Below, in pieces: positions 48,453 through 54,055 of a DNA stretch of 64,000 nucleotides; within the stretch, counting starts at the first letter, position 1; each line of letters starts with the position of its first letter. The notes beneath the pieces were generated by a model. It made no database searches and had not been told where the DNA came from. It worked only from the letters and a program-made list of their open reading frames with translations. Location: assembly GCF_003258515.1 (NCBI RefSeq), contig NZ_QGEH01000001.1, positions 434,001 through 498,000 of the forward strand, given 5' to 3'. Both the position numbers and the translations under genes were made by a program. This stretch comes from Marinobacter bohaiensis (GTDB lineage Bacteria; Pseudomonadota; Gammaproteobacteria; Pseudomonadales; Oleiphilaceae).

Positions 48453-48468
48453 TGGCACGCGAATCGCT
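48453..48468 (+). promoter_or_regulatory. Sigma-54 (-24/-12) promoter of the surface-fibre operon
   Basis: TGGCACG-N4-TCGCT, with GG (48454-48455) and GC (48466-48467) exactly ten bases apart, matches the RpoN consensus TGGCACG-N4-TTGCW in all but one position. Transcription should start near 48479, giving a leader of about 95 bases before the ATG at 48575. An NtrC-type regulator gene is encoded 4 kb away in the same locus. Confidence 0.78.
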
Positions 48469-48574
48469 CGGATGCTTTTCGCGGGTCATGCGTCCTGGTC
48501 TGCCGCAACTCTTGGATGGAGGTGGCGACGACGTAGATCCAGTGATTCAGCAATCAGACATAAGGAAAGACATC

Positions 48575-51542: not shown

Positions 51543-52631
51543 CTAGAACGCGATCGGCAACTTGAGGGTCAGCTCCGTGGTGGGGGCTTCCTCCGTCACT
51601 CCCACACTGACGGACACGCTCAGGCTGGTGTCGCGCGTCAGCTGCTGCGACAGCCCGAACGACAGCGAGCCCACCTGAATGCGGTCGAACACCGCGTTGT
51701 TCAGGTCATTGTCGAACTCCACGTCGGTCTTGGGAATCACCGAGTGATCGTAGCCCAGGCTGAACGAGGTGCGCTCATTGAAAGCGAAGCCCATGCCGAA
51801 ACCGAAGCGCACGATGTTGCCCGGATCGATGGTGCCGCCGTTCTCTAAACCTTCGTCCTCCTCCTGGGTCCAGGTGTAGCTGAGGTTGCCGAACAGCACC
51901 GCCGGATCCGACGGGTAGATGAACGACAGACCCGGCTCGAACGCCCAGAAACCGGAGCCCGTGGGGCGCTCCGCAAAGGCGATGCCGATGGGGTTGCCCT
52001 GGCTGTCCTCCAGCACCCGGCGGTCCACGTCGTAGGGGCCTTCGCCGGTGGGCGCTCGTACCCGGAACGTCCCAATCAGGTAAGGCCAGCCTTCGAGGCC
52101 GTCGTTGAACTGGTAGCGGATGGTGGCCTCCACATCGCCCAGTCCTTCGCCGGACGACTCGGTCAGGGTGTCGACGGGCGTTCCCTGGAACGCGGCCCGC
52201 TCGCGCAGGTCCTCGTCGATCTGCAGATAGGGAACGCGCAGCGTGGTTTCCAGGCGGCTGGTGATGCCGTACTTCATGGTCACCGCGCCGACGAAGATGT
52301 CGCGTTGCACTTCGGTGACGTTGATCAGGCCCACCAGCAAGGCCGGGATCACGGTGTAGCCCTCGATGGCCACCACCGTGGAGTTGCTGTTGGCGTAGGA
52401 AAAGGCTGGCTCGATGACGAACTTGCCCGCCCGGGTGACGATCCCCCGGTCGGTGGTGATGGACGCGATCTCGCTGGCCCTCTCGTTGACCCTTTCGGCT
52501 TCCTCTTTCTCTTCCTGCGTTGTCTGGGCCATAACGGCGGATGCGAGCAGGCTGCTGCAGGCGATGACCGAAACCAGAGCCGATGCCGGTCTTGGCTGAT
52601 AGCGCGCGCGAGCCGGGGCATAATGCTTCAT
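51543..52631 (-). CDS. Outer-membrane beta-barrel with N-terminal coiled coil (FapF-like)
   Basis: Protein of 362 residues. The ATG at 52631 has a perfect AGGAGGT seven bases upstream and overlaps the regulator stop (ATGA). After a long signal peptide (ASALVSVIACSSLLASAVMA) there is a short charged coil, TTQEEKEEAERVNERASEIA. The rest is amphipathic beta strands of alternating type (FVIEPAFSYANSNSTVVAIE, RVPYLQIDEDL, TELTLKLPIAF at the end with terminal Phe). The final Phe is the outer-membrane insertion signal. Such barrels are often annotated as transporters. A coil before a barrel is the plan of FapF, the amyloid secretion channel. It converges on the fibre operon. Confidence 0.72.
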   Translation of the reverse strand: MKHYAPARARYQPRPASALVSVIACSSLLASAVMAQTTQEEKEEAERVNERASEIASITTDRGIVTRAGKFVIEPAFSYANSNSTVVAIEGYTVIPALLVGLINVTEVQRDIFVGAVTMKYGITSRLETTLRVPYLQIDEDLRERAAFQGTPVDTLTESSGEGLGDVEATIRYQFNDGLEGWPYLIGTFRVRAPTGEGPYDVDRRVLEDSQGNPIGIAFAERPTGSGFWAFEPGLSFIYPSDPAVLFGNLSYTWTQEEDEGLENGGTIDPGNIVRFGFGMGFAFNERTSFSLGYDHSVIPKTDVEFDNDLNNAVFDRIQVGSLSFGLSQQLTRDTSLSVSVSVGVTEEAPTTELTLKLPIAF

Positions 52632-54055
52632 GGATGACCTCCTTTGCGATGAACCGGCTCGCGCCGCGTCGACGACGACTCGTGGGCGGTTCCGTGCTTG
52701 GCCATGAGTCGGTAGAGCGAGAGTCGGGAAATCCGCAGCAGGCGCGCCGCGGCAGAGACATTGTGGTTGGCGATGTTGAGGCAGTAAGTGATCGCTTCGC
52801 GCTCCGCCCTTGCCCGGAAGCGTTCCAGGGAAAGCTGGGTGCGCGGCTGCTCGGGATTGTCCCGGGAGCACAGACCCAGGTCCTCCGGTGTAATCGTGTC
52901 GGACTCACTCAGCAGTACCGCCCGCTGCAGCCGGTTGTGCAGTTCGCGCAGGTTGCCGGGCCAGTTGTGGGTCAGCAGGCAAGCCATGGCGTCCTCGCAC
53001 AGGCGACGCGTCTTGTGCGGGCTCAGCCGGTGGGCGTGGCGCAGGATGGTGTTGCACAGGAACGGCAGATCCTCAAGCCGGTCGCGCAGGGGCGGTAGCT
53101 GGACCTGCAGGTTGCCCAGGCGGTAGAAGATGTCGGCGCGGAACTGCTCCTCCCGGACCCGTTGCTCCAGCGGGTGGGTGGTGGTGGCGATGACGCGCAC
53201 CCGAACCCGGCGCGGATTGTGGCTGCCCAGGCGTTCCACCACGCTCTCCTGCAGGAAACGCAGCAGGGTGGACTGCTGTTCCAGCTGCAACTCGTCAATA
53301 TCGCTCAACACCAGGGTGCCGCCGTCCGCCTGTTCGATGCGTCCGGCCCGGGCGCTCAGGGCATGGGTGAAGGCGCCTTTCTCGTGGCCAAACAGCTCGC
53401 TCTGGGTCAGCGTCGGCGGCAGGGCCGCGCAGTTGACCAGCACGAAAGGCCCCTGACGGGCGTCGGAATGATCGTGGATGAAGTGCGCTGCGGTATTGCG
53501 GCCGGTGCCGCTCTCGCCCAGGATCAGCACCGGTTCGGTGGTCTGGGCGATGCGCCGCAGCAGAGCCCGCGTCTCGACAATGGCGGGCGACTCCCCGTCC
53601 AGTGCCTGTTCCTCGAAATTGCCTCGCACACGGCTGTGCTGGCGCAGCGCCATCAGTCGCGCCATGCCCCACAGGTGGCCCAGGGTGACGTCGAGCCGGC
53701 GCAGGTCGTAGGGGCGCGTGTGGTAGTCGGTGCAATAGCCGGCGACAATGTCGCTGAGCAGGCTGTTCTGGTCCGGCGGAGAAGGAAGCAGGCTGATCCA
53801 GTGCGCGGGGCTGAGCGTCTCGATCCAGTCTTCCAGATCCAGGGCGGATGGATCGCCCACGTCACCCAGGTCGATCACGCCCACCCGGACCCGTGGCAGC
53901 GCACTGGGCCGGCGTCGCGGTGGCTGGCCCAGGTCAACCGGATGAATGATCCAGTGCCGGGCCAGTTCGGTGAATGTCGTTGGCAGCCGGCCCCCTGGTG
54001 AGAGCCAGATCAGCTCGCGTTCTACGGTCATGCCCTGGATTCCCTGATCCTGCAT
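52628..54055 (-). CDS. VpsR-like NtrC-family regulator with degenerate ATPase motifs
   Basis: Protein of 475 residues (ATG 54055; the ATG at 54031 is possible). The N-terminal domain is not a standard receiver; DYHTRPYDLRRLDVTLGHLW with GMARL (about 110-134) is like VpsR of Vibrio. The AAA+ domain has Walker A GESGTGRNT with Arg186 for Lys. The sigma-54 loop is GAFTHA (227-232) for GAFTGA, and Walker B GGTLVLSDID (245-254) replaces LDEI. The sensor region FRADIFYRLGNLQVQLPPLR DRLEDLP is intact, as is the C-terminal Fis-type helix-turn-helix (NHNVSAAARLLRISRLSLYR). VpsR binds c-di-GMP and activates biofilm genes. It is the likely regulator of this locus. Confidence 0.82.
   Translation of the reverse strand: MQDQGIQGMTVERELIWLSPGGRLPTTFTELARHWIIHPVDLGQPPRRRPSALPRVRVGVIDLGDVGDPSALDLEDWIETLSPAHWISLLPSPPDQNSLLSDIVAGYCTDYHTRPYDLRRLDVTLGHLWGMARLMALRQHSRVRGNFEEQALDGESPAIVETRALLRRIAQTTEPVLILGESGTGRNTAAHFIHDHSDARQGPFVLVNCAALPPTLTQSELFGHEKGAFTHALSARAGRIEQADGGTLVLSDIDELQLEQQSTLLRFLQESVVERLGSHNPRRVRVRVIATTTHPLEQRVREEQFRADIFYRLGNLQVQLPPLRDRLEDLPFLCNTILRHAHRLSPHKTRRLCEDAMACLLTHNWPGNLRELHNRLQRAVLLSESDTITPEDLGLCSRDNPEQPRTQLSLERFRARAEREAITYCLNIANHNVSAAARLLRISRLSLYRLMAKHGTAHESSSTRREPVHRKGGHP

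Follow-up and report, generated by a model that had tools for sequence, protein, structure and literature searches.

Six genes (P0001 to P0006) at positions 48453-54055 of a 64,000-nucleotide stretch of Marinobacter bohaiensis DNA (contig NZ_QGEH01000001.1, positions 434,001 to 498,000; called here the window) probably represent a sister lineage of the Fap amyloid-export system, rather than Fap itself, and would specify a surface fibre under the control of cyclic di-GMP (c-di-GMP) and RpoN. Taken as a single claim, this is held at a probability of about 0.72. The assignment to a sister lineage follows from the homology of two of the products to FapD and FapF, from subunits that are unmatched by Fap models, from the separation of the two types in trees, and from genomes that hold both systems. 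All six open reading frames (ORFs) are intact and the set is kept together around 79 loci, in agreement with the coherent set proposed in a first-pass annotation of this DNA. In what follows, loci and proteins of the P0001-P0006 type are termed window-type, L and G numbers denote loci and genomes, and the signal peptides (Sec-type) of P0001 to P0005 are those judged by eye. The features are listed below (aa, amino acids; nt, nucleotides; E, expectation value).

48453-54055: the six-gene set, with P0001-P0004 on the + strand (48575-51499) and P0005-P0006 on the - strand (51543-54055)
48453-48468, + strand: sigma-54 (-24/-12) promoter-like site, TGGCACGCGAATCGCT, 122 nt 5' of the P0001 ATG, agreeing with the consensus at 10/11 positions
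48575..49684, + strand: P0001, 369 aa, candidate for the secreted major subunit; translation, composition and orthologues indicate a signal peptide, repeats rich in Asn/Ser/Asp and a C-terminal domain
48647..49444, + strand: acidic Asn/Ser/Asp repeat region of P0001, residues 25-290, assigned from composition; putative counterpart of the variable linkers of FapC
49445..49681, + strand: residues 291-369 of P0001, a conserved domain at the C-terminus that matches by profile the end of the P0002-family proteins; candidate fibre core
49741..50091, + strand: P0002, 116 aa, secreted small subunit with a VIQNTGN.V.IQ motif, candidate nucleator
49843..49878, + strand: P0002 leader, LSTDQLQESNGR; C39 cleavage predicted after GR, from the FapE-leader matrix and the looser family motif
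50139..50837, + strand: P0003, secreted C39 peptidase, FapD homologue (PF03412, E=5.5e-21; NF058616, 153 bits)
50843..51499, + strand: P0004, 218 aa, secreted double-glycine-leader protein, FapE counterpart by its place after the C39 gene, its leader and a partial FapE profile match
50969..51004, + strand: P0004 leader, LDNPELDQQRGG; C39 cleavage predicted between Gly54 and Phe55, motif conserved in the family
51543..52631, - strand: P0005, 362 aa, outer-membrane beta-barrel, FapF homologue (FapF in the PDB, E=7e-34; NF058560, 158 bits; fold match to 5o67)
52628..54055, - strand: P0006, sigma-54 enhancer-binding protein with a VpsR domain, BrfA-type regulator, overlapping P0005 by ATGA

Export machinery and its separation from Fap

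The first-pass annotation had seen in the secreted C39 protease and the barrel a parallel to FapD and FapF. This was borne out and indeed exceeded, since the proteins are homologous by profile, by PDB sequence and by fold. P0003, for which an alternative GTG start is possible at 50130, has the PF03412 match and the signal peptide expected of a secreted C39 protease, together with the triad Cys58, His143 and Asp159. These three residues are invariant in all 65 aligned rows (window-type 34/34, FapD 21/21, Fil-type 10/10). Against the FapD model NF058616 it scores 153.4 bits (E=5.3e-45), below the curated cut-off of 330. In FapD, the active Cys has been found to be required for function (PMC5557850; PMC6173800).

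When P0005 was compared with PDB sequences at E up to 10, there were four matches, all of them FapF. Its score with the FapF model NF058560 is 158.5 bits (E=2.3e-46), again below the curated cut-off (700). In a fold search with the predicted structure, 5o67 was found at E=8e-21 with a template-modelling score of 0.87 by target length, and 18 FapF chains headed the ranking, followed by the COG4313 channel 4rl8. The structure was predicted with no template; it is nevertheless not independent of FapF, because its alignment includes eight FapF rows. COG4313 / Phenol_MetA_deg channels belong to the same barrel superfamily, and P0005 matches both PF13557 and 4rl8; however, P0005 fits FapF far better by fold, its sole PDB sequence match is FapF, and a C39 gene lies nearby. 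Thus the nearest solved structures are those of FapF, ahead of the channel, and the barrel was not found to be a substrate transporter of known function. The earlier description of a coiled-coil barrel ending in Phe stood as to the barrel and the terminal Phe, but not as to the coiled coil. Only a short helix of low confidence (residues 40-58) precedes the barrel of P0005, and a coiled coil fits FapF and some distant P0005 relatives. Nor is Phe a trait of the family, as relatives also end in Leu, Ile, Tyr, Trp or Gln.

The subunits behave differently. P0001, P0002 and P0004 have no match to any Fap model at E up to 1, including NF058557 and NF058558 for FapB/FapC and NF058559 for FapE; as a positive control, the proteins of L084 score 302 (FapB), 388 (FapC) and 346 bits (FapE) with their own models. 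By this search, the idea of a system like Fap in logic but not in subunit holds. Among nine window-type subunits of other clades, Pfam gave one weak match (E=0.089) with no family named, and among seven compared with NCBIfam, matches at E=0.004 (over the signal peptide) and 0.07 likewise named no family. In the members scanned, none of the three kinds of secreted partner falls in a Pfam or NCBIfam family.

Quick IQ-TREE trees of the 65 rows separate the two types. In the C39 tree, the 34 window-type proteins lie on one side of a branch with 98 support in the Shimodaira-Hasegawa-like approximate likelihood-ratio test (SH-aLRT) and the 21 FapD proteins are set apart by another (97); in the barrel tree, the corresponding values are 96 for the window-type and 92 for FapF. 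Support for the root between the C39 proteins and the Fil group is weak (71), and in the barrel tree the Fil proteins are not gathered in a single group. Furthermore, genome G159 holds both a canonical fap locus (L088) and a window-type locus (L089), and genome G373 holds both as well (L157, L171). In L088 itself, a canonical set of fap subunit and protease genes occurs twice in tandem, and each set includes a short protein that carries a GR leader-like string (LEDGDLASIRGRF, LGDRDLERVVGRY). In L161 and L162, Fap operons of another class of the phylum, there is an extra gene between fapE and fapF (187 and 200 aa) that falls outside the six-gene fap layout.

Part of this finding had been anticipated, because fapD-fapF pairs were noted in five further phyla by Rouse et al. 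(PMC6173800). The results of a literature search, in which subscription journals lay outside and many results were off topic, included no description of the six-gene set.

Leaders and subunits

Double-glycine leaders of bacteriocins are of the LSxxELxxIxGG type, are cut after GG, and have the register L-12, E/Q-8, L-7, G-2. The secreted double-glycine-motif protein expected from the first-pass annotation is found in P0004, whose leader directly follows the signal peptide and has L-12, E-8, L-7, G-2 and G-1. The register L-12, L-7, G-2, placed just past the signal peptide, is common to the leaders of P0004, P0002 and FapE (for example LKDQELATLRGR). Because such a FapE-type, double-glycine-register leader follows their signal peptides, P0004 and P0002 are likely substrates of the C39 protease. 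The bacteriocin-leader models of NCBIfam gave no match at E up to 10.

Within residues 11-110, the motif [LIVM]x3RG[GRK] is present in 31/32 P0004-type proteins (shuffled mean 0.6), in 18/21 FapE (0.4) and in 15/34 P0002-type proteins (0.2). The looser [LIVMF]x4G[GRK] is found in 32/34 of the latter, with a shuffled mean of 8.6 and a maximum of 17. The first motif is absent from FapB (0/21), FapC (0/21), the majors (0/32) and both sets of C39 proteins (0/34 and 0/21), and occurs in 1/18 FapA. A strict form, with D/E/Q/N at -8, is seen in only 18/32 P0004-type and 21/34 P0002-type proteins, counts in which the match in L034 and L035 is a different, downstream site. Strings of the LSDxDF type are visible by eye in FapA, where the strict leader motif occurs in 4/18 and the looser motif at shuffle level; FapA was considered as a counterpart of P0002 and rejected (profile match 0.4%).

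A leader matrix trained only on 20 FapE leaders places the P0004-type protein at the top of its own locus in 21/32 cases and first or second in 25/32. At the locus in the window (12 proteins), P0004 ranks first at 15.3 and P0002 second at 5.9, the third-ranked string (4.4) lying inside the signal peptide of P0001; a score of 13 is reached by 1/386 other proteins. The question bears on Fap itself, in which FapE is the sole protein with complete N-terminal processing and the target of FapD was left unclear (PMC5557850; PMC6173800), although FapE was suspected as the FapD substrate in the FapF structure study (PMC5557850).

Several observations tell against the assignment of P0004 and P0002 as substrates. 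The matrix performs poorly in distant members, where the P0004-type protein ranks 6, 8 and 11 (L168, L173 and L167, respectively), and it places the P0002-type protein first or second in only 18/34 loci. The match of P0004 to the FapE profile is confined to the leader and about 15 further residues, and an attempt to relate mature P0004 to mature FapE failed (0.9% versus 0.6% for a reversed control). FapE leaders end in GR or GK, not GG/GA; FapE peptides are missing over the first ~70 residues, which is beyond the predicted leader site (PMC5557850); and a figure legend names FapC as the protein modified by FapD (PMC10638192). An alternative is that the RGG/RGR motif is a structural or FapF-docking element instead of a protease site; it draws some weight from residue -1, which is R/K in FapE and the Marinobacter P0002 family where canonical sites have GG/GA, and from the loss of FapE peptides as far as about residue 70. 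Such a role is considered unlikely, though not strongly so: the site lies just past the signal peptide, in the L-12/L-7/G-2 register, and adjoins a C39 gene with an intact triad.

With regard to the major-subunit candidate, the Asn/Ser/Asp repeat protein described earlier was confirmed. P0001 has 13 copies of DSGNDNS, N+D+S make up 68% of its repeat region, and residues 25-290 contain 51 acidic and 0 basic residues. It has no Pfam match at E up to 1, and Cys is absent from P0001, P0002 and P0004. The claim that the major subunit lacks the Fap repeats and a C-terminal CxxC stands insofar as there is no match to the FapB/FapC models and no Cys; however, the missing CxxC is not enough to exclude Fap, because FapC of L084 and of L154 likewise end without it.

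The C-termini are related among the P0001, P0002 and P0004 families: hhalign gives 94.5% for the P0001-type versus P0002-type domains (reversed control 0.1%) and 88.9% for P0004-type versus P0002-type (reversed 0.4%). The low-complexity region of the major varies in length and composition, being rich in N/S/D in Marinobacter, L091, Aestuariicella, Vibrio and Croceicoccus and in Gly in L053, L089, L092 and several more clades. The C-terminal Q/N motif persists across these clades of differing composition. Likewise, the linkers of FapC vary while its repeats hold (PMC3792158).

This pattern bears on the possibility that the product is a non-amyloid coat or adhesin, in which what leaves through the barrel is a disordered acidic brush, for Ca2+ binding or against fouling, and no cross-beta fibres are formed. 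Such a coat would suit a P0001 that is mostly acidic low-complexity sequence with one short conserved C-terminal domain, a domain that is without a FapC match. It is nonetheless rather improbable, given a Q/N motif that is kept where the composition of the brush changes and that is common to three proteins of the set.

The P0002-type proteins have a weak profile match to the FapB repeats (at 41%, 48% or 61% with different trimming; reversed control 0.1%), and the P0002 profile has no match in the PDB at E up to 10. The description of P0002 as curlin-like had to be reduced to a resemblance, as there is no Pfam curlin match at E up to 1.

Distribution, promoter and regulator

Twenty of the 96 other genomes in the search for relatives carry a window-type C39 gene, and all six genes were detected in 18/20 of the stretches fetched, including a broken copy (L051). 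The stretch of L052 ends before the regulator, and in L053 no P0004 was found by tblastn. In L051 (genome G017), the major, small-subunit, C39, P0004 and barrel genes are reduced to short remnants, next to a regulator gene of full length. In L040 (genome G026), the C39 query matches two equal-scoring places 2.9 kb apart, and part of the set looks duplicated. In a sample of 398 genomes of the phylum, 38 match NF058616 at 1e-20; by score, 20 are Fap (>200 bits), 16 window-type (125-158 bits, broken copy included) and 4 Fil-like only, with both Fap and window-type in two genomes. Placement in the tree supports 15/16 of the window-type and 15/20 of the Fap genomes, the rest being assigned by score.

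An alignment search of genome contigs with P0002 yielded at least 537 confirmed relatives, and gene neighbourhoods were counted for the best 79 of these loci, with profiles built from loci that share some genomes with the counted set. A C39 gene is present in 79, a barrel in 75, a P0004-type gene in 76, the major domain on its own ORF in 70 and a sigma-54 activator in 63. The figure of 70 is used because three of the 73 major-domain matches (L222, L246, L251) lie on the small-subunit ORF. These counts are not independent, because 51 of the 79 loci are titled Marinobacter. In the other 28, the C39 gene is found in 28, the barrel in 24, the P0004-type gene in 26, the major domain in 22 (two of them on the small-subunit ORF) and the sigma-54 activator in 12. 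The genes of the set are conserved together. From the family sets, L051 was dropped as a broken copy, as were L170 and L172 from the P0004 set and L166 and L170 from the major set for unusable gene calls; L093, a wrong call, and L169, truncated at a contig end, are poor rows that remain in the major set.

Hosts outside Marinobacter include Aestuariicella, Vibrio, Burkholderia, Nitrosomonas, Geotalea, Lautropia, Parahaliea and deltaproteobacterial genomes. On a plasmid of the alphaproteobacterium Croceicoccus marinus, a DSGNDNS-repeat protein (L255:3408-4415, two genes before the C39 gene), a small GR-leader protein, the C39 protein, an RGG-leader protein and a "transporter" are encoded in a row. 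The proposed neighbourhood of a C39 gene and a DSGNDNS-repeat gene therefore holds outside the genus. In public annotation of an alphaproteobacterial relative, the products are named "hypothetical protein" (the DSGNDNS-repeat protein included), "C39 family peptidase" and "transporter".

A sigma-54-type promoter had been proposed before the repeat-protein gene, and besides the site in the window, a promoter-like site scoring >=9/11 is seen in 58/68 upstream regions, mostly at about -110. Shuffles, which preserve single-base composition only, reach this score in 2.9%. The 68 regions are those of 67 of the 79 loci plus the window, and most are from Marinobacter; the ten below threshold include three from Vibrio, one from Nitrosomonas and two from Burkholderia.

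The VpsR-like regulator coupled to the barrel has likewise been substantiated. P0006 contains VpsR (PF20161, 25.3 bits, cut-off 23.7), a sigma-54 AAA+ domain (PF00158, E=1.5e-57) and a Fis-type helix-turn-helix, and its gene overlaps that of P0005. Of six other regulators scanned, VpsR was scored in four (L084 and L149, beside fapF; L164 and L234, window-type) and was not scored in the remaining two, from L157 (fap) and L089 (window-type). The fap operon of P. fluorescens PF07 is preceded by a -24/-12 promoter and requires RpoN and BrfA, the latter encoded by an adjoining reverse-strand gene (PMC9207406). In addition, c-di-GMP sensing has been reported for BrfA (PMC13101488). The Fap trait of an RpoN promoter with a BrfA-type activator beside fapF thus appears to be present, as the promoter-like site and the VpsR/sigma-54 protein P0006.

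A fibre model and comparison with known systems

The set most likely serves to build a surface fibre similar to Fap, controlled by c-di-GMP and RpoN and bearing an acidic Asn/Ser/Asp brush. In this model, high c-di-GMP would activate P0006, which would drive the promoter at 48453. P0001, P0002 and P0004 would reach the periplasm by Sec and remain unfolded there, and the periplasmic C39 protease would remove a propeptide of ~20 residues from P0004 (after GG) and probably from P0002 (after GR). Removal of the propeptide would license export through P0005. Outside the cell, P0004 or P0002 may nucleate, the C-terminal Q/N motifs of P0001 would stack into the fibre core, and the fibre would display the acidic Asn/Ser/Asp region as a hydrated brush serving adhesion or biofilm cohesion. 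The new branch of exported amyloid-like or adhesive fibres suggested by the first-pass annotation is, accordingly, a putative one, which homology, synteny and the search with Fap models support at the level of genes.

It should be noted that some findings weigh against the fibre model. The long coiled coil of FapF, reported to be critical (PMC5557850), is missing from P0005; the P0001-type C-terminal domain has no detectable match to the end of FapC (0.3%); and the predicted structure of P0002 is of low confidence, with a predicted local distance difference test score of 53 and no fold, for which reason it was not used for a fold search. In addition, the promoter-like site was not found in the three Vibrio loci and one Nitrosomonas locus examined, and six further non-Marinobacter loci score <=8. 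Finally, the cleavage, secretion and amyloid state of the subunits are what we infer from sequence.

That the set is instead a diverged Fap operon, of the same family but rearranged and with fast-evolving subunits, is distinctly improbable. In its favour, counterparts of FapD, FapF, the FapE leader and BrfA are all present, Fap is known to vary strongly in FapB/FapC and, in some variants, to lack fapA or to have fapF apart from the other genes (PMC3792158), and P0002 has its weak likeness to the FapB repeats (41-61%). Against it, the Fap subunit models are unmatched at E up to 1, both trees split the types (98 and 97 for C39, 96 and 92 for the barrel), and two genomes each hold both types (L088 with L089, L157 with L171).

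The window-type loci provide a separate, naturally occurring test of the requirements of a FapF-type pore, with other subunits, no long coiled coil in P0005, and the same protease and barrel. The leader common to FapE, P0004 and P0002 would pinpoint an exact bond for the open question of the FapD substrate. A broader generalisation is tentative, and we hold it at somewhat less than even odds: that exported fibres of the C39/FapF type include a second class, found about as often as Fap in the Pseudomonadota sample and extending to alpha- and deltaproteobacterial genomes, and that in this class a leader code of the double-glycine type is read in the periplasm once Sec export is complete, licensing outer-membrane secretion. 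The same code (RG[RK] in FapE, RGG/NGR in the window-type and perhaps TGQ in FilA) would then name the substrate of FapD. Marinobacter colonises oil and marine surfaces; should the genus indeed have a class of fibres coated with acidic Asn/Ser/Asp sequence, this would matter for marine biofilms and for the engineering of protein fibres.

Among known systems, curli follow a surface-fibre logic of a dedicated pore with minor and major Q/N-rich subunits, and the six-gene set is alike in this logic; in Pfam at E up to 1, none of its six products has a curlin-repeat or CsgG-type match. The Fil system of Acinetobacter (FilA-FilF, the "putative pilus system" of NCBIfam) has a C39 peptidase and a barrel of the same superfamilies, but P0003 scores 101.6 bits with FilB (cut-off 475) and P0005 43 bits with FilC (cut-off 630), both far below, and the six-gene set is without the FadL-like neighbour. 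A separate Fil-type cluster is present elsewhere in the M. bohaiensis genome (G000:C1 ~2592500-2597400; L094:3556-8321), where a second pair of C39 and FapF-like barrel genes lies beside a FadL-like gene and one more secreted-protein gene. In Fil-type clusters elsewhere, proteins matching the FilA model carry leader-like strings such as MQDEALSSVTGQ in the same register.

Fap remains the closest comparison. Unlike Fap, the six-gene set has subunits without Cys that leave the FapB, FapC and FapE models unmatched, no FapA was found in it, and the window-type major has a single C-terminal motif in place of several Fap repeats; the P0005 gene lies on the opposite strand and its product has no long coiled coil, and the proteins fall in separate clades. 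Like Fap, it has a homologous C39 protease and outer-membrane barrel, a leader-bearing secreted protein encoded after the protease gene, a major subunit with a variable linker and conserved Q/N motifs, and an RpoN-type promoter-like site together with a VpsR-domain activator gene beside the barrel gene.

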